Source: Halarcobacter mediterraneus (GTDB lineage Bacteria > Campylobacterota > Campylobacteria > Campylobacterales > Arcobacteraceae). Taken from it: a DNA stretch of 64,000 bases. The position numbers and the translations under genes are program-made. Below, in pieces: positions 47,610 to 56,792 of the stretch. The notes under the pieces were generated by a model. It saw only the letters and a program-made list of their open reading frames with translations, made no database searches and was not told where the DNA came from. Where the stretch lies: the NCBI RefSeq assembly GCF_004116625.1, contig NZ_NXIE01000001.1:744001-808000 (forward strand), in the 5' to 3' direction. The first letter of the stretch is position 1. The number at the start of each line of letters is the position of its first letter.

Positions 47610-48374
47610 ATGAAACTTATTATACCAGCTTTTATTTTATCAATAATTCTTCATCTTTTATTTTTAATGAATTTTGAAACAAAAAAAACTGAGCCTAAAA
47701 AGCAAAATAAACAAGTAGAAAAACCAATTAATAAATCTGCTGTAAAGTATGTAAAATTAAAACCTAAACCTGAAAATAAACCAAAAGTCATAGAAAAAAC
47801 TGAACCTAAGAAAAGTATAAAAAAGGTTGAAAGACCAAAGAAATTTAAAGAAGCAAAAAAACCACCTAAAACTGTAAAAAAAAGGGAAGTAGTAAAAATA
47901 CCAAAACCTAAAAAAGAGATAAAAGAACCCAAGATAACTTTTAAGCAAAGAGAAAAAGATATTGAAAAAAGATCTTTAGAAAACTTTTTATTAGCTGAAC
48001 CCATTCCTTTAGATAAAGAAATGTTAGATGAAATTACAAAGAGTTATTTAGATCTTTATGGGGAAGAGTATAACTCTTTTACAAAAGTTCAGAAAGTTTT
48101 TATTCAAAATAGTATTAAATCTATTGTTCAAATCACAAGAAATCATTATAGATTTCCAGAACTTGCCATTAAACTTAGAAAGAATGATTTTAACATTGTT
48201 GAATTTGTTTTACATCCAAATGGAGATATAAGTAATTTAAGAATTGTAAAACCTGGAAACTATTCTTTTTATGATAAATCTATTTTAGAAGCAATTGAAA
48301 TTGCATATAAAGATTACCCTAGACCTAAGGAACCTACAAAAATAAAATTTTATATAACTTATAATGTTTATTAG
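47610..48374 (+). CDS. tonB: TonB-like energy transducer
   Basis: The 254-aa protein has an N-terminal membrane helix (IIPAFILSIILHLLFLM), a long Lys/Pro-rich periplasmic linker with repeated KPKP and EPK motifs, and a C-terminal TonB domain from about residue 150 (RFPELAIKLRKNDFNIVEFV, then LHPNGDISNLRIVKPGNYSF and DKSILEAIEIA). It would carry proton-motive energy to outer-membrane receptors. exbB/exbD are not adjacent. The TonB-dependent receptor gene at 51983 lies a few genes away. Confidence 0.88.
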   Translation: MKLIIPAFILSIILHLLFLMNFETKKTEPKKQNKQVEKPINKSAVKYVKLKPKPENKPKVIEKTEPKKSIKKVERPKKFKEAKKPPKTVKKREVVKIPKPKKEIKEPKITFKQREKDIEKRSLENFLLAEPIPLDKEMLDEITKSYLDLYGEEYNSFTKVQKVFIQNSIKSIVQITRNHYRFPELAIKLRKNDFNIVEFVLHPNGDISNLRIVKPGNYSFYDKSILEAIEIAYKDYPRPKEPTKIKFYITYNVY

Positions 48375-49376: not shown

Positions 49377-49976
49377 TTGAAATTAGTTTTAAAGAACAAT
49401 AGTATTTTTTTTATTATTGTTCTTCTTTTAACTAGTTTTTATATTTTAGATACTTCAATTTATAAGTATCTTGAATACAATTTATATTCAATAGAAAAAC
49501 TTCAATTATGGCGTTTATTTACAGCAAACTTTTTACACACAAACTTTTATCACTTTATTCTAAATACTTTTGCCTTTACATTTATTTTTTTCTTATTCAA
49601 AAATAATTTTTCATTTAAATTTTATATTTTTTTATTTACTTTTTTATGTTTTGCAGTAAGCACTTGTATCTACTTTTTTTCCAAAGATATTATAAATTAT
49701 GTTGGATTATCTGGTGTTTTACATGGTTTATTAATTTATAGTTTATATCTAGAAAAAAAATCAAAATTAAACTATCTTATGATTTTAATAATATGGCTTA
49801 AAGTTATTTATGAACAAATATTTGGAGCAAGCAAGCAAATTGAAGAACTTATAAAAGCCCAAGTAGCAATTGATGCACACTTCTATGGAGTAATATTAGC
49901 TACATTTATCTATTTTATAACTAAACGATATATAAAGATTAAAAATAATAATTACAAGAATTTATCTCAAAATTAA
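49377..49976 (+). CDS. rrtA: Rhombosortase (rhomboid-family protease that processes GlyGly-CTERM proteins)
   Basis: The 199-aa protein has about six membrane helices with rhomboid features: QLWRLFTANFLHTNFYHFIL and NTFAFTFIF (H-x-x-x-H-x-x-x-N), the catalytic YVGLSGVLHGLLIYSLYLEK (GxSG, Ser near residue 118) and QVAIDAHFYGVILATF (catalytic His near 165). WRLFTANFLHTN and VGLSGVLHG with DAHFYG are the rhombosortase version rather than GlpG. Rhombosortases cut GlyGly-CTERM tails; two such proteins are encoded at 50680-51966 and 54114-56105. The start is a TTG 10 bp past the MTHFR-like stop. Confidence 0.85.
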   Translation: MKLVLKNNSIFFIIVLLLTSFYILDTSIYKYLEYNLYSIEKLQLWRLFTANFLHTNFYHFILNTFAFTFIFFLFKNNFSFKFYIFLFTFLCFAVSTCIYFFSKDIINYVGLSGVLHGLLIYSLYLEKKSKLNYLMILIIWLKVIYEQIFGASKQIEELIKAQVAIDAHFYGVILATFIYFITKRYIKIKNNNYKNLSQN

Positions 49977-50023
49977 TTAAAAAATATAATCTATTCTTTA
50001 CTGCTATATAGATAAAATACAAA

Positions 50024-50653
50024 ATGGAAAAATTAAAAAACATAGAACTTTTTAACTCATTAAATGATACTCAATTAAAAAAAATCAAAGAAATAACTTT
50101 ATTTAAAAACTTTGATAAAAATACTATTCTCTTTTTTGAAGGAGAGAAACCTAAGTATTTTTATTTACTTTTGGATGGAAATGTAAAAGTATATAAAATT
50201 GACCATAAAGGAAATGAAATTATAGTGCATAATTTTGTAGGTCCAACTTTGGTTGCTGAAACTGCAAGTCTAGATGACTTACTTTTCCCTGCAAATTGTA
50301 TATGCTTAGAAAATTGTAGATTTGCACTTATAAAAAAAGAAGAGTTTCATCATATCTTAAAAAATGATAGTGAAATTTCTTTTCAAATAATAAAATCTTT
50401 AGCTAAAAAAATCAGATATATGAATACTTTTATTGATAGTAGTTTAGTCTTTGATATAGATACAAGAATAGCTAAATATATAAACAAAAGCCCAGAAGAG
50501 TTTAAAAGTAAAAAAAATAAGATAATTGCAGCTGAATTAAATATTTCCCCTGAAACTTTTTCAAGAAGTCTAAAAAAATTTAAAGATTTAGAAATTATAG
50601 ATAAAAACCTAAATCTTTTGAATAAAGATAAACTTCAAACATTTATAAAATAA
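50024..50653 (+). CDS. Crp/Fnr-family transcription regulator
   Basis: The 209-aa protein has an N-terminal cyclic-nucleotide-like beta barrel (LFFEGEKPKYFYLLLDGNVK and VYKIDHKGNEIIVH, then GPTLVAETASLDD) and a C-terminal winged helix with IAAELNISPETFSRSLKKFK. The recognition helix has E-T-F-S-R, the ExxSR type that in FNR reads TTGAT half sites. It lacks the N-terminal cysteine cluster of FNR, so it is not an Fe-S oxygen sensor of that kind. A perfect TTGAT-N4-ATCAA box lies at 56779-56792. Confidence 0.88.
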   Translation: MEKLKNIELFNSLNDTQLKKIKEITLFKNFDKNTILFFEGEKPKYFYLLLDGNVKVYKIDHKGNEIIVHNFVGPTLVAETASLDDLLFPANCICLENCRFALIKKEEFHHILKNDSEISFQIIKSLAKKIRYMNTFIDSSLVFDIDTRIAKYINKSPEEFKSKKNKIIAAELNISPETFSRSLKKFKDLEIIDKNLNLLNKDKLQTFIK

Positions 50654-50660
50654 GATGTTA

Positions 50661-50684
50661 TATAGCACTTTTTCAAGTGCTATA
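50661..50684 (+). terminator. Terminator after the Crp/Fnr gene
   Basis: A 10-bp perfect stem (TATAGCACTT with AAGTGCTATA) with a TTTC loop and a T-rich tail follows the regulator stop; its right arm includes the stop codon of the convergent 428-aa gene. Confidence 0.85.
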
Positions 50685-51966
50685 TTTTTCTTTTCATAAA
50701 TTTCTTTTGTAAAAATATTAAACTTAATAACAATAATAAGCTATAAATACTACCTCCTGCACTTTCATCCTTCCTTTCAATCTGTCCTAATGTGTTTTGA
50801 GCTATTGCAAGTGATGTTTTAATTTCATTATTTTTTAAACCATCTAAATCTTTACCATCTAAATCAGTTATTGTGATTTTTATAGTATTATCATCTACTT
50901 TTTCCCACTTATTAGAATCCAATAAACTATAAACTTGAGACTCATATTCTTTCATATATATCAATAATTTTTCAGGTAAAAATGAAGATAACTTCAAAGT
51001 AACTGTTGTTGAATCCTTTGAAGAATCATTTAAAACTGTTGTAAAAGTTAGATTTCCTAGAGAATACTCTAATCCTGGTTCTCCTAAAGTCAAATCATCT
51101 TCAATCAAATCTCCAATTCCGGTATTATCAGGTATTTCTGTTTCCATACTTTCTACACTAACGTTTTGTAAATTCATACTTTCTTCAACACTTATAGAAA
51201 TAGTACTATCATTTAATAATTTGATATCTTCTATAGAGTTTGAACTAAAAGCTAAATCTCCTGCTTCTAAAGCATCAATAATCCCATCGCCATCACTATC
51301 CTTAGGATTATTAATATCTTCTCCTACTTCTATATAGTCTGGAATACCATCACCATCAGTATCAAGTTTACAAGGATCTAATCCTAATCTAATAGCATCT
51401 TCATCACTTATTCCATCATCATTACAATCAGCTCCTACTAATCTTGCCGTTCCCATTGGTGCAGGTTCAATAGTTAAAGGGAAAACTCCTGGAATTTGAG
51501 TACCTAAAATACCATCTAAAACTCCATCTTCTGCATCTATTGTATTTATTTCTAAACTATTATCTGTTTTTATTATTTCGAAAGTGATTGTTGTATTTGC
51601 TCTTGGATTACCTAAATCAGGCTTATATATTTGAAATTGTGGAAAGATAGTATATGTTCCATCTGTATTATCTACAAAATTAATAATATCATTGTCTGGA
51701 TCTGCATTATCAATATCATGGAAGGCATAATTAAATCCAACAGACAAAGTAGTACCTGTTATAACTACTTCTTTTTTATCAAAATCCCAAGTCCAAGGAA
51801 CACTTCTAACACCATAACCTAAAACATTCCCTGTGGGGTGAGCTCGAACTGTAATTTGATAATCTCCTGTATAAACACCTGTTAAACCTGCTGTTCCTGC
51901 TGCATAAATATTTGTAGAAACAAATATTGCACCTAGAAGTAAATATTTTTTTATTTGTTTTTTCAT
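50680..51966 (-). CDS. Secreted protein with N-terminal paralog domain, TSP3 repeats and GlyGly-CTERM tail (428 aa)
   Basis: A signal peptide (IKKYLLLGAIFVSTNIYAAG) is followed by a domain of about 170 residues shared with two neighbours: TAGLTGVYTGDYQIT, WTWDFDKKEV, NTDGTYTIFPQF, DAEDGVLDGILGTQIPGVFP. Then come calcium-binding thrombospondin type-3-like repeats (DCNDDGISDEDA, DTDGDGIPDYIE, DSDGDGIIDALE), a region of unknown fold, and the C-terminal tail AGGSIYSLLLLLSLIFLQKK followed by FMKRKI: a Gly-Gly, a hydrophobic helix and basic residues. It is the last gene of the receptor operon, 16 bp after the receptor gene. Ligand unknown. Confidence 0.85.
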   Translation of the reverse strand: MKKQIKKYLLLGAIFVSTNIYAAGTAGLTGVYTGDYQITVRAHPTGNVLGYGVRSVPWTWDFDKKEVVITGTTLSVGFNYAFHDIDNADPDNDIINFVDNTDGTYTIFPQFQIYKPDLGNPRANTTITFEIIKTDNSLEINTIDAEDGVLDGILGTQIPGVFPLTIEPAPMGTARLVGADCNDDGISDEDAIRLGLDPCKLDTDGDGIPDYIEVGEDINNPKDSDGDGIIDALEAGDLAFSSNSIEDIKLLNDSTISISVEESMNLQNVSVESMETEIPDNTGIGDLIEDDLTLGEPGLEYSLGNLTFTTVLNDSSKDSTTVTLKLSSFLPEKLLIYMKEYESQVYSLLDSNKWEKVDDNTIKITITDLDGKDLDGLKNNEIKTSLAIAQNTLGQIERKDESAGGSIYSLLLLLSLIFLQKKFMKRKI

Positions 51967-51982
51967 TTTTTCTCCAATTCTA

Positions 51983-54100
51983 TTACCATTTATAAACTAA
52001 ACCAGCAGTAAGATTAAAGCCTGCACCAGGTATGAAGTTTGGTAAATCAGGGGCACTTAAACCTCTAACGACATAAGCTGTTTGATAAACTTCATCTGTA
52101 ATATTATTTAGGTCAAGAAATAATCTAAGGTTTTTTGTAATGTTATAACTTGTTTCTAAACCCAAAAGATAATAAGCATCTTGTTTAGTACTTTCTGTAT
52201 TATAATGGTCTATATAAGTTTTTTCTGGTTGCAACCTTAGATTTGCACCTAAATACCATGAACTATTTGGCCAATACCCAAATTCTGCTTGAATTAGATG
52301 TTTAGGAACACCTGCTAAATACTTTCCTTCATATTCTCCATCATCAAAAGTAAAATGACTATAATTGTAAATTAGTTTTGATACAAATTTATCATTTTCT
52401 AAAAATACTGAATCAATAAAATGTTTTACACCTAACTCAATTCCTTTATGTATAGTTTTTCCATCATAATTTATAGTTTTTCCATTTACTGCAAAGTCCC
52501 CTACTACAGATATCAATTCATCATCTACTTCTGAATAATAAAATGCCGTACTAAAATCAAAGTTTTCATATTTTGTACTTACCCCAACTTCAAAAGTTTT
52601 TGCTTTTTGCATTTTTAAATCATTTATTTGAACATGATCATTTAAAGGATTTCCTGGATTTGCAACAACTGTTGCAAGTTGCCAAAAGTTTGGAGATTCT
52701 GAACTGGTACTAAAATTTGTATATAATCTTAAGTCTTCATAGGGTTCATAGATAAGCCCTACTTTAGGATTTAAAACTGAATATGAAAAATCACTGTCTA
52801 AAAGATTTTTACTTTTATTATCTGTTATTTCTCTCTTATTTAATACCCACTGAACTGAAGCTAAGGCTTTTAAATCACTTGTTAATTCTTGTGTTACTTG
52901 ACCACCAAGAACAACATTTGAAGCATCTAAATCAACATCTGCAATTTTTCGTAAAATACTTCCATCTAAAGGATTTATACTTTTATATGTTCTTGGCATT
53001 TCACCTTTATTTGCAGAAACAAATAATAAATAGTTTGTTAAGAGGTTATTTTTTAGAAGATGATTATAATTAAAAGAATAATCTAGTCCAAAATTACGAA
53101 TGTCAGTTTCCATTTCAGTTAAAGGATTTCTAAAAGTATCTTCAGTCTTTGAAGTATAAAAACCTATTTTTTGAACTGAATTCTCTGTAAAAACTTTTGT
53201 TTTATTTGCTAGTCTATACTCTTTTGATTCTCTTTTTGGTTTTCTAATTGAGATATTTAAAAGTTCACCTAAAGGTCCATGTCCTTCTCCCATAACAAGT
53301 TCTGGATTGTTTTTTGCTTCTTCTTTTCTTAATAAAAATGGAATATCAAAATCATTTTTTGTATAGTTAAAATAAGTTCTATTATCCCAATTTTCCTCAG
53401 TGTACCCCAAGTTAAAAGCTATACTATCTCTTTTACCTTCACTATGATTACGAAAACCTTCTTGTTGAGAATGACTTGCATATAAATGATAATCGAATTT
53501 ACCTATTTTTTCTGCAAATGTCATTTTTGCTTTTCTAAATTCAAAAGAACCAACTTCAAAGGCTAAAGAATTTGAACTATTATATGCATTTCTAATATTT
53601 AAATCAATCGCCCCACCTAAGGTAGTAGCTCCATAACGCATTGCATTACTTCCCCTATATATAGATAAGTGATCAGCTTGTTCAGGGTCAATCATTCCTA
53701 TAATAAAAGAACCATCTGGATGATTTAAAGCCAACCCATCATAGAGTATTTGGATTCCTCTATTTACAGGGTTATCTTGAATCCCTGAACCTCTAATATT
53801 AATTCGTGGTTGGTCATTTCCTCCAAAAAACTCTTGAACAATAATTCCTGGTTCATAGTTTAAAACTTTTGAAATAGAAGCTTTACTAGAAGTAATATCA
53901 TCCATCTTTATAAGATTTGTTCCTCCTGGAACTTCTTTTAATGTATTTTCTAAATCTATAGTTTCTGGATTTTTTTTATTTACTGATTCTTGTATAGTTA
54001 TATCATCTAATTTCACGTCTTCTTTTCCTTGAGAAGCAAATAAAATATTTGCTCCTAAGAATAAAGATATAATTACATACTTATTTAAATTGTAAGGCAT
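51983..54100 (-). CDS. TonB-dependent outer-membrane receptor
   Basis: The 705-aa protein has a signal peptide, a TonB-box-like start (KLDDITIQESV), the plug domain (SISKVLNYEPGIIVQEFFGG, QPRINIRGSGIQDNPVNRGI, HLSIYRGSNAMRYGATTLGG) and a 22-strand-like barrel ending with FNLTAGLVYKW, an aromatic C-terminus for outer-membrane insertion. The substrate cannot be told from sequence; the plug resembles siderophore or small-nutrient receptors. It lies between the two GlyGly-CTERM protein genes with short gaps (13 and 16 bp), so the three are one operon. Confidence 0.94.
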   Translation of the reverse strand: MPYNLNKYVIISLFLGANILFASQGKEDVKLDDITIQESVNKKNPETIDLENTLKEVPGGTNLIKMDDITSSKASISKVLNYEPGIIVQEFFGGNDQPRINIRGSGIQDNPVNRGIQILYDGLALNHPDGSFIIGMIDPEQADHLSIYRGSNAMRYGATTLGGAIDLNIRNAYNSSNSLAFEVGSFEFRKAKMTFAEKIGKFDYHLYASHSQQEGFRNHSEGKRDSIAFNLGYTEENWDNRTYFNYTKNDFDIPFLLRKEEAKNNPELVMGEGHGPLGELLNISIRKPKRESKEYRLANKTKVFTENSVQKIGFYTSKTEDTFRNPLTEMETDIRNFGLDYSFNYNHLLKNNLLTNYLLFVSANKGEMPRTYKSINPLDGSILRKIADVDLDASNVVLGGQVTQELTSDLKALASVQWVLNKREITDNKSKNLLDSDFSYSVLNPKVGLIYEPYEDLRLYTNFSTSSESPNFWQLATVVANPGNPLNDHVQINDLKMQKAKTFEVGVSTKYENFDFSTAFYYSEVDDELISVVGDFAVNGKTINYDGKTIHKGIELGVKHFIDSVFLENDKFVSKLIYNYSHFTFDDGEYEGKYLAGVPKHLIQAEFGYWPNSSWYLGANLRLQPEKTYIDHYNTESTKQDAYYLLGLETSYNITKNLRLFLDLNNITDEVYQTAYVVRGLSAPDLPNFIPGAGFNLTAGLVYKW

Positions 54101-54113
54101 AATATTTTCTCTC

Positions 54114-56105
54114 TTATTTTTTTCTTTTAAATAATGTTAAAGCTAGTAAAGAAAGTAATAACCAAGAAAAGCTTCCTCCACTTCCTCCTGAACTACCACT
54201 ATTATCTGTATTATCATTTCCACTATTTGTCTCATCTTCTATTATTCCATTTGCTATTAATGAGTTTTTTAGATGTTCTTTTACTTCTTCCATTGGTTTT
54301 ATCTCTATATTTGCTGCTGTTAGTACTTCTTCTACATTAAAATCACTTGATTGGATATCTCTTATTCCTTCTGCTTCTAATGCTGCTACTGATATATCAT
54401 CTATCTCTATGTTTTCTGTTGTTGTATCACTATCTAATGATTGCAGAAATTGTGCTATTTTTAGTACGGTTTCATTTTCTAAATTATCTCTTTGCACTCC
54501 TACTATATCTTGAATAAAAATCTTTCCATCTTCATTTACTTTTGAGATTGTCCCTATTTTTACATTCCCTACTGAAAATTTTACTTCTCCTGAGCCATAA
54601 TAGAAACTCCCATCTTCTCCTATCTCTCCTTCATAGCCTGGATTTAAATTAACAAATTCTAATTCAGATGGTGTAGACTGAGTATATGTATATTTAATAC
54701 CTTCAACTGCTGAATCAATAAAGTATACTTTTCTTTTTTCTCCCATTGCAAAGATTACCGAACCTCTAAGACCTTCTTCATCAAAAGCATCAAAACTAAT
54801 TTGATTTTCAGATATTTTTTCCCAAGTTATTTTTGTATAATCATAATAAGATATTGTTTTCCCTGTTTCTGGATCAATCTCATTATCACTAGAATATTTT
54901 TGAATACCTAAATATGCTTGAAAGTTTTCAGGAATTTTATCCTCAAAAGACATAATAAGTTTTTGAGTTTTATCTTTGACAAAAGCAAGATCATCATGAA
55001 AATTTAGATTAAGTGTTTTATAATATATTTCTACACCATTTTCATTTGTTTTAGGTGGAATATCTCCACTAGTCTTAATAACAACATGAGTACTTCTATT
55101 TTTTAACTCAGGATTATAGTCTTCAAAAAATAAAGACTGACCATTTAATCTATATTTTCCTTGATTCTCAATAGAAAAAGATGGACCAATTTCATTTGTA
55201 AATTTACCTAAAAGATAACCTTTTTGAGCTTCCTCTCCACCTTCTAAATAATTAGGAATTCCATCTTCATCTGTATCTTCAGGAGTATAAATAGTTATCA
55301 TTTCATCTATATCATTTATTCCATCTCCATCAGTATCTAATACATTCTTATCTAATCCTAAGAATTCTGCTTCAATATCTGTAATTCCATCATTGTTACT
55401 ATCTTCTCCTGTATCTTTTTTCATCTCTACAGAGTAGTAACTTGGTTGAACAACAAGAGGAAAAACATTTGCAATTCTTCCTCCTGGAATACCATCTAAT
55501 TCTCCTCCATCTGTTTCATAATCTAAACTTTCAATTTTTAATTTTTCATTCTGAAAGCTAACTTTAAATTTACCAGTAGTGTTACCAAAAGGATAACTTT
55601 GTAGCGAAAGATGAATTTTTTTACCAAAATCAACAAGATATGTACCATCATTATTATCAATAATATCCATTGTAATTTCATCTTCTGAACTTATATGAGG
55701 ATAGGTTTCTTTAGCCTCAACCCAGTTAGAATTTTCATCCATATGTGCACCATCTTTTTCTTCCTTAACATTTTGATTATAAGGTTGAAATCTCACTCTA
55801 ATGCCTTCTAAAGCATAAAGTTGACTTCCACCCCAAGTAACTTTCATATTATCAAAATCCCATTTCCATAAGCCATTATTTACACTATAACCCAAAGTTA
55901 TATACTCTACACCTTCACTTGATGTTTTAAGAGGAAGTCCAGATACAAATCCTGATGCATTTTCATCCGCTGTATTCATTAATAGCCTATAAGTTCCAAC
56001 ATAAGTTCCAGTTGGTTTTGTATAAGATGTTTCTTCTGCTGCAAAAGCAGTTCCTGCGCTTGACAATAACGCCCCTGCAAGTAATATATTATGTATTGTT
56101 TTCAT
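54114..56105 (-). CDS. Secreted protein with N-terminal paralog domain, TSP3 repeats and GlyGly-CTERM tail (663 aa)
   Basis: A signal peptide (NILLAGALLSSAGTAFAAEE) precedes the shared domain (KPTGTYVGTYRLLMN, LWKWDFDNMKVTW, DNNDGTYLVDFGKK, DGGELDGIPGGRIANVFPLV). Next are TSP3-like acidic repeats (DSNNDGITDIEA, DTDGDGINDIDE, DTDEDGIPNYLE), a large unknown beta-rich region, and the tail SSGGSGGSFSWLLLSLLALT with LFKRKK, a strong GlyGly-CTERM signal. First gene of the three-gene receptor operon. A function in capturing or presenting a ligand to the receptor is plausible but unproved. Confidence 0.87.
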   Translation of the reverse strand: MKTIHNILLAGALLSSAGTAFAAEETSYTKPTGTYVGTYRLLMNTADENASGFVSGLPLKTSSEGVEYITLGYSVNNGLWKWDFDNMKVTWGGSQLYALEGIRVRFQPYNQNVKEEKDGAHMDENSNWVEAKETYPHISSEDEITMDIIDNNDGTYLVDFGKKIHLSLQSYPFGNTTGKFKVSFQNEKLKIESLDYETDGGELDGIPGGRIANVFPLVVQPSYYSVEMKKDTGEDSNNDGITDIEAEFLGLDKNVLDTDGDGINDIDEMITIYTPEDTDEDGIPNYLEGGEEAQKGYLLGKFTNEIGPSFSIENQGKYRLNGQSLFFEDYNPELKNRSTHVVIKTSGDIPPKTNENGVEIYYKTLNLNFHDDLAFVKDKTQKLIMSFEDKIPENFQAYLGIQKYSSDNEIDPETGKTISYYDYTKITWEKISENQISFDAFDEEGLRGSVIFAMGEKRKVYFIDSAVEGIKYTYTQSTPSELEFVNLNPGYEGEIGEDGSFYYGSGEVKFSVGNVKIGTISKVNEDGKIFIQDIVGVQRDNLENETVLKIAQFLQSLDSDTTTENIEIDDISVAALEAEGIRDIQSSDFNVEEVLTAANIEIKPMEEVKEHLKNSLIANGIIEDETNSGNDNTDNSGSSGGSGGSFSWLLLSLLALTLFKRKK

Positions 56106-56164
56106 TGTTATCCTTTATTTTTTAAAGTTAAAATTATTTTGTATATTAAAAGAGTAAGAGTAAA

Positions 56165-56202
56165 TAAAAAGTGAATATCCCAAAAGGGATACTTACTTTT
56201 TA
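56165..56202 (-). terminator. Terminator between the 169-aa gene and the 663-aa gene
   Basis: AAAAAGT, a bulge, TATCCC and GGGATA, a bulge, ACTTTTT form a long stem with a short loop between the small secreted protein gene and the receptor operon. It may end, or attenuate, transcription from the upstream promoter. Confidence 0.65.
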
Positions 56203-56211
56203 TTTATAAAA

Positions 56212-56721
56212 TCAATTTGTATATCCATACCAATTTAATTCAACAGGGAAAGTTCCAGTTGTAGAACTAGATATAGTACCAGGGACACCATTTGATTCTG
56301 TATCTACAGAGATAATAGTCAAACCATTAACTGTTTCTGTGATATCAAGTGTAGTTGAGAAAGTAAAGATAGGAGAACCAAAAAAACTAAAATTAGGTTG
56401 AAAAGTATAATTTATAGTATATGTTCCATCACCATTTGAAACTAAAGTTTTAGGTCCTGCTATTGTATATTGAATACCTGTACCTAAAAGAGCATCAACT
56501 TTACCATTTTGAGTAGTTATTGTTCCATTATCAAAATCTAAAGTCCAATTATAACTTTTTTGAGTGGTTCCGAATTGAGCATTACCTTGATCTGGTCTAT
56601 GGGCATTAAAATCATATGTCCCACTATGTACTCCTGTTATACCTGGTGTTCCTGCTACTAAAGAACTAGCACCTAAAGAAAGAGCTAATAGCCCTGCTAA
56701 AATAATTTTACTAATTTTCAT
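56212..56721 (-). CDS. Secreted stand-alone version of the paralog domain (169 aa)
   Basis: A signal peptide (KIILAGLLALSLGASSLVAG) is followed only by the domain found at the N-terminus of the two large neighbours: GTPGITGVHSGTYDFNAH, NWTLDFDNGTITTQNGKVDA, NGDGTYTINYTFQPNFSFFG, DTESNGVPGTISSS and TGTFPVELNWYGYTN. It has no TSP3 repeats and no GlyGly-CTERM tail, so it would be released to the periplasm or secreted by another route. AAAGGAGT ribosome-binding site; an FNR-type box is upstream. Confidence 0.85.
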   Translation of the reverse strand: MKISKIILAGLLALSLGASSLVAGTPGITGVHSGTYDFNAHRPDQGNAQFGTTQKSYNWTLDFDNGTITTQNGKVDALLGTGIQYTIAGPKTLVSNGDGTYTINYTFQPNFSFFGSPIFTFSTTLDITETVNGLTIISVDTESNGVPGTISSSTTGTFPVELNWYGYTN

Positions 56722-56778
56722 TTTTACTCCTTTAATTAATTAGTTCAAGAATGATACCAAATATCATTATTAAAAATA

Positions 56779-56792
56779 TTGATTTAAATCAA
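56779..56792. promoter_or_regulatory. Perfect FNR-type box
   Basis: TTGATTTAAATCAA is a perfect TTGAT-N4-ATCAA palindrome in the gap between the small secreted protein gene (minus) and the SRAP gene (plus), about 57 bases upstream of the former. The nearby Crp/Fnr-family gene has the matching ExxSR recognition helix. Direct regulation is an inference. Confidence 0.7.

Follow-up and report, generated by a model that had tools for sequence, protein, structure and literature searches.

A rhombosortase gene that faces an operon for secreted proteins with GlyGly-type tails and a TonB-dependent receptor raises the question of whether these genes form one system, and what such a system would do. The locus lies in Halarcobacter mediterraneus, within a 64-kb stretch of contig NZ_NXIE01000001.1 (positions 744,001 to 808,000) that was analysed as a whole and is here called the window; the gene coordinates given for it by a first-pass annotation were all found to be right. 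The gene at 49377..49976 (+ strand), which starts with TTG, encodes a rhomboid-family intramembrane serine protease that passed the rhombosortase equivalog model TIGR03902 (142.8 bits versus a cut-off of 84) and displays in alignment the catalytic motifs, GLSGVLHG and AHFYG, common to other rhombosortases; its earlier identification thus stands. The operon on the − strand encodes: (i) GG428 (50680..51966), with a signal peptide, a barrel domain, TSP3-like repeats, a choice-of-anchor U domain (37.2 bits versus 32), and a GlyGly-type tail, as judged from profile matches and a structure model; (ii) the TonB-dependent outer-membrane receptor (51983..54100); (iii) GG663 (54114..56105), with a signal peptide, the barrel domain, TSP3-like repeats, and a GlyGly-CTERM tail; and (iv) a secreted barrel-only protein of 169 aa (56212..56721), recognized by the domain profile and its orthologues. 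Between the rhombosortase gene and the operon sits a gene that was absent from the first-pass annotation, encoding a Crp/Fnr-family regulator (50024..50653, + strand) with a cNMP-binding domain (PF00027, 61 bits) and a helix-turn-helix of recognition helix PETFSR.

The proposal that GG428 and GG663 both carry GlyGly-CTERM tails was borne out for GG663, whose tail passed the GlyGly_CTERM model (17.4 bits versus 15.5). The GG428 tail has the tripartite layout (AGGS, a hydrophobic stretch, and KKFMKRK) but was not reported by the 22-residue model TIGR03501; the GG428 orthologue of locus L092 did pass the GlyGly model at 17.9 bits. GG428 itself was not found in any of 60 further genomes from its family. 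Matches to the TSP3-like calcium repeats described earlier were present, but the best of these (20.0 and 14.4 bits) fell under the Pfam cut-off of 25. The receptor between the two GlyGly-tail genes was clear in both its plug (PF07715, 56.7 bits) and its barrel (PF00593, 134.2 bits). The tonB gene at 47610 was likewise correctly named (39.1 bits versus 27.1), but its inclusion in the system was not upheld, as the remaining module loci, described below, were not seen to carry a tonB.

The domain shared by the three secreted proteins was found to be real, with a profile of its three copies retrieving just those three in the window genome (E-value of 1e-62 or better), and the 169-aa protein consists of this domain alone, as had been suggested. 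Among 397 Campylobacterota genomes the domain was clearly present in one, that of the window; a match of 19.6 bits over 68 residues in another campylobacterote (G335) was weak and was taken as noise. Searches against Pfam and NCBIfam gave nothing above cut-off, and profile matches to filamin and gelation factor (best E-value 2.5e-7) were rejected because they covered only about 30 residues round DNGDGTY, a shared turn motif. Structure prediction returned a domain model that was almost entirely beta at a pLDDT of 94.5 (81.8 for full-length GG428), which makes a small beta-barrel the high-confidence prediction for the domain. Foldseek gave no match to the domain model at an E-value ≤ 0.001. The best rows of a VIA-align 2 comparison were de novo barrels (Z 10.2 for one), OmpA, and BcnA (Z 9.2), and the barrels of HpuA, TbpB, factor H binding protein, and HphA were aligned over about 108 to 122 residues at a borderline Z of 8.0 to 8.6; use of the full GG428 model left this picture unchanged. 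Since the tool itself cautions that a common arrangement can give a Z near 8, the likeness to the TbpB, HpuA, and HphA barrels is taken as a hint and not as membership, and a profile search of solved structures gave no sequence link of the domain to barrels of this type.

Type II secretion genes, which the first-pass annotation had called for, were found as a full operon in the window genome, with GspD (365.8 bits versus 351.35) and GspG (109.4 bits versus 88.85) above cut-off, GspC, GspE, and GspF each below cut-off in the same operon, and pseudopilins beside them. A rhombosortase above cut-off was detected in 1 of 298 sampled Campylobacterota genomes, again that of the window, and a genome-wide TIGR03501 search, run at a lax threshold with a model of only 22 residues, reported a single other GlyGly match, which was below cut-off and lay within an ammonium transporter; the rhombosortase therefore looks dedicated to this locus. 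That the enzyme and the operon are chance neighbours acting separately would agree with the finding that the rhombosortase gene is at the locus only in the window and in L042 (Pollutimonas), and is usually on a separate contig in the other genomes checked. We regard this as very improbable, since the one true rhombosortase of the phylum sample and the one above-cut-off GlyGly tail of the genome meet at the same locus, and since dedicated rhombosortase/GlyGly-CTERM pairs tend to be adjacent (Haft and Varghese, PMC3237569). The L042 locus argues in the same direction, as its domain genes adjoin both a rhombosortase gene (120.1 bits versus 84) and gspC, gspG, gspH, gspI, and gspJ, with the same site, TTGACAATTGTCAT, found before the secretion genes and again before the domain genes.

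The domain profile, run against 84,980 species genomes, identified 6 loci; further sampling added genomes G766 and G778, and 236 more genomes from the family of L041 then added 3 loci of Vibrionaceae. The full order, in which a divergent Crp/Fnr gene is followed by genes for a 146-aa membrane protein, a barrel-only protein, a 663-like protein, the receptor, and a 428-like protein, was found in Psychromonas (L038), Vibrio penaeicida (L041), and the three Vibrionaceae loci (L092, L093, and L094), while L039 has a second barrel-only gene and L040 (Alloalcanivorax) has no 146-aa gene. The window arrangement, with the receptor gene between the two anchored-protein genes, recurs in every one of the seven full loci elsewhere (L038 to L041 and L092 to L094), and the barrel-only orthologues of Gammaproteobacteria precede the 663-like gene. 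The 146-aa membrane protein (L038:5042-5482, with orthologues in L039, L041, L092, L093, and L094) has no assigned family; its gene, where there is one, opens the operon in Gammaproteobacteria and was observed to have promoter sites of its own. A reduced form, with a 428-like gene and then the receptor, occurs in L043, from a Sulfurovum metagenome-assembled genome, and in L060, a near relative, and the domain genes of L042 and L061 have no neighbouring receptor. The receptor orthologues of the nine loci with the gene in the same place (L038 to L041, L043, L060, and L092 to L094) are 45 to 58% identical to the window receptor and have in common with it the plug stretch QEFFGGNDQPR.

The co-occurrence on which the first-pass annotation depended was thus detected in other genomes: of 12 domain loci, counting that of the window, 10 have the receptor adjacent to domain genes, L042 and L061 being the exceptions. 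In a sample of 369 Gammaproteobacteria, a receptor orthologue (E-value ≤ 1e-100) was found in 2 genomes, both with the domain, and the domain in 3; one of the two had served as the search centre, which leaves a single genome of this sample as independent support. The receptor was also present in all three of the newly found Vibrionaceae loci. Flanking genes vary between loci, and therefore the block itself is the unit: a transferable module that appears to have spread horizontally between distant bacteria. A plasmid search gave no match. The base composition of the block equals that of the window (28%), so its acquisition, if it was acquired, was probably not recent.

The sorting enzyme was found to match the tail type, the anchor having been changed while the domain was kept. 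A rhombosortase above cut-off is encoded in six genomes of Gammaproteobacteria that carry the module or the domain (G427 to G431 and G778), including one, G778, in which the GlyGly type of the 428-like tail is not clear. In G432 and G766 no rhombosortase was above cut-off and the enzyme MrtJ was (106.5 and 109.5 bits versus 75), the former encoded in a Campylobacterota genome at G432:C51:23753-24043; no MrtJ was found in G427, examined as a contrast. Correspondingly, the Sulfurovum locus encodes a domain protein (L043:10331-11230) with a JDVT-CTERM tail (35.6 bits versus 27), and a domain protein of L061 has a JDVT-like tail that scored 17.0, below that cut-off of 27. Because genomes without a rhombosortase carry the domain with a JDVT-type tail and MrtJ, surface anchoring appears to be the trait that is kept. 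The swap of rhombosortase and MrtJ with matching tails may be viewed as a natural test, in which selection keeps surface anchoring and not a particular enzyme. The MrtJ/JDVT pair was described as sporadic in beta- and gammaproteobacteria (PMC11980579), whereas here it also occurs in a Sulfurovum genome and together with a TonB receptor. A third tail type was detected on a single barrel-domain protein (L061:10587-11255), which ends in an exosortase-type VPLPA-CTERM sequence (28.3 bits versus 25.35).

Promoter regions were scanned for regulator sites. Fur boxes matching at least 13 of 14 positions were found 8 times in module promoters (L038, L039, L040, L041, L093, and L094) compared with 0.007 expected from shuffles; these were near-perfect in Psychromonas and Vibrionaceae, with the L040 site at 13/14, and would fit the response to metal limitation that the first-pass annotation had envisaged. 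The window has a weak Fur-like palindrome, TGATACCAAATATCA (56752..56766), of 11/14, which is not significant (3,887 of 20,000 shuffles). It also has a perfect FNR-type box, TTGATTTAAATCAA (56779..56792), upstream of the barrel-only gene; this is the only one within the 64 kb, such a box arose in 39 of 20,000 promoter shuffles, and L060 has a perfect one too. The Crp/Fnr gene flanks the module in the seven gammaproteobacterial loci as well (L038 to L041 and L092 to L094; L038:4158-4919 in the first), and all seven of these proteins end in CCN(L/F), a possible metal- or redox-sensing site that the window protein is without. Sites resembling TTGACA-NN-TGTCAT were detected at the module in L038, L039, L041, L042, L092, L093, and L094 and are plausible targets of the locus-encoded Crp/Fnr protein, for which TTGATTTAAATCAA and TTGACAAATGTCAT are candidate sites. 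By pattern scan, 6 terminator-like hairpins were found in the region versus 2.0 in shuffles; one of these (56174..56193, − strand), which separates the barrel-only gene from the other operon genes, is a possible attenuator and could raise the barrel-only protein above the remaining products.

Considering the gene content, the conservation of the block as a unit, the matching of enzyme and tail, the secretion system, the promoter sites, and the predicted fold, all obtained by computation, we find that the best explanation is probably an iron-regulated capture-and-uptake module, delivered by type II secretion and rhombosortase, in which the barrel hands its ligand to the receptor. Good support exists for the module as a genetic unit, for its distribution, which is wide but patchy, for its link to type II secretion and to a sorting enzyme of the matching kind, and for control by Fur in Gammaproteobacteria. 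That the proteins are secreted and anchored, that they bind a ligand and hand it over, and what this ligand is are what we infer from these results. The three barrel proteins, one soluble and two anchored, would cross the inner membrane by their signal peptides, after which the hydrophobic tails of the two anchored proteins would hold them there for rhombosortase to cut and lipid-modify. Type II secretion would bring these two proteins to the cell surface, where the barrel domain would bind a nutrient or nutrient carrier and hand it over to the receptor encoded between their genes. Expression would be controlled by the locus Crp/Fnr regulator and, in Gammaproteobacteria, additionally by Fur.

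With less assurance, and as a serious possibility that we lean slightly away from, the module may be a two-part receptor of the outer membrane, analogous to the pairs TbpB-TbpA and HphA-HphR, with capture proteins built on an undescribed barrel domain, exported by type II secretion, and anchored through the sorting enzyme of the host (rhombosortase, MrtJ, or, for the receptor-less domain, the enzyme for a VPLPA/exosortase-type tail). TbpB, HpuA, and HphA reach the surface by Slam. Like the module, the Slam-dependent pairs HphA-HphR, HpuA-HpuB, and TbpB-TbpA have a small-beta-barrel surface or secreted protein encoded beside a TonB-dependent receptor, and HphA with HphR makes up a two-component heme receptor in A. 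baumannii (PMC8560813). The barrel likeness to these partners is borderline (Z 8.0 to 8.6). The module differs in that (i) a profile search of solved structures gave no sequence link to them; (ii) inspection of its ORFs revealed no Slam (DUF560) gene; (iii) its delivery tags are GlyGly-CTERM or JDVT-CTERM; (iv) its anchored proteins have TSP3-like repeats and a choice-of-anchor U region; and (v) no counterpart of the heme-binding handle of HphA was found in its proteins. The module may work like the Slam-delivered receptor partners, and membership in that group is not claimed. Known rhombosortase/GlyGly-CTERM substrates are mainly proteases and nucleases, whereas the barrel proteins here are linked to a TonB receptor, and we know of no receptor partner of this kind that uses the type II secretion and rhombosortase route. 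VesB of Vibrio cholerae, which shares its enzyme family, tail type, and secretion system with the window locus, is cut, given a glycerophosphoethanolamine-containing modification, and put on the surface in this way (PMC6219818). A literature search on GlyGly-CTERM and TonB-dependent receptors returned a match that by its title and abstract concerns another secretion system, and one on GlyGly-CTERM, Fur, and iron found nothing. The module looks like an undescribed nutrient-capture system. If so, it would be a second, independent solution beside Slam for delivering receptor partners, it would give rhombosortase a nutritional role, and a domain with no Pfam or NCBIfam name would gain a testable function.

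The barrel proteins may alternatively be iron-stress surface proteins, such as adhesins or matrix components, that are co-regulated with the receptor and do not act on its ligand. Surface proteins with a wide range of functions commonly have choice-of-anchor U and TSP3-like regions, the domain has no adjacent receptor in L042 and L061, and the VPLPA-tailed protein of L061 weakly resembles the flocculation protein PepA (35.8 bits versus 80). We consider this unlikely, however, as the receptor was placed between the anchored genes in 7 of 7 full loci outside the window and was never found without the domain in the 369 genomes. The capture-and-uptake reading leaves a choice of ligand. Fur control points to iron, and an iron source is most likely, with heme as first candidate: at L038 the module adjoins genes for HutX (202 bits), HutZ (258 bits), and a heme ABC ATPase (330 bits), all above cut-off, this being the one locus with heme genes beside it. 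The receptor itself passed none of the curated receptor models, scoring 100.4 versus 316.85 and 110.8 versus 323.75 with the heme models TIGR01785 and TIGR01786 and falling below cut-off with the siderophore model as well. Given iron, heme or a hemoprotein and a siderophore or other chelate are about equally credible, each a fair way from assured. A ligand other than iron, with Fur as a secondary control, is quite unlikely, as it would have to be reconciled with the near-perfect Fur boxes of Psychromonas and Vibrionaceae, the 13/14 site of L040, the heme-use genes of L038, and, for copper, a copper receptor model score of just 28 bits versus a cut-off of 472. Copper or a cofactor nonetheless retains some possibility, given the weak likeness of the 146-aa protein to CopD (20.1 and 18.1 bits versus 32.1). 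Also in favour of such a ligand are the PQQ transporter PqqU as the best relative of the receptor by sequence among solved structures, the Crp/Fnr control, which hints at a respiratory signal, and, in L043, a fragment of a MauG-like gene after the module.

The MauG-like di-heme enzyme gene of the Sulfurovum locus (L043:11489-12443) is split in two ORFs. At the same locus, a 1170-aa ORF (L043:6680-10192) runs from a 428-like protein that still has its tail into the receptor, whose signal peptide is also present; in L060 these two genes are overlapping ORFs. A domain fusion was rejected, as the tail and the receptor signal peptide are kept at the junction and the two ORFs of L060 overlap, and the joined ORF was left out of the evidence for the module; it may be either a polyprotein of natural origin or the product of a one-base insertion or an artefact.
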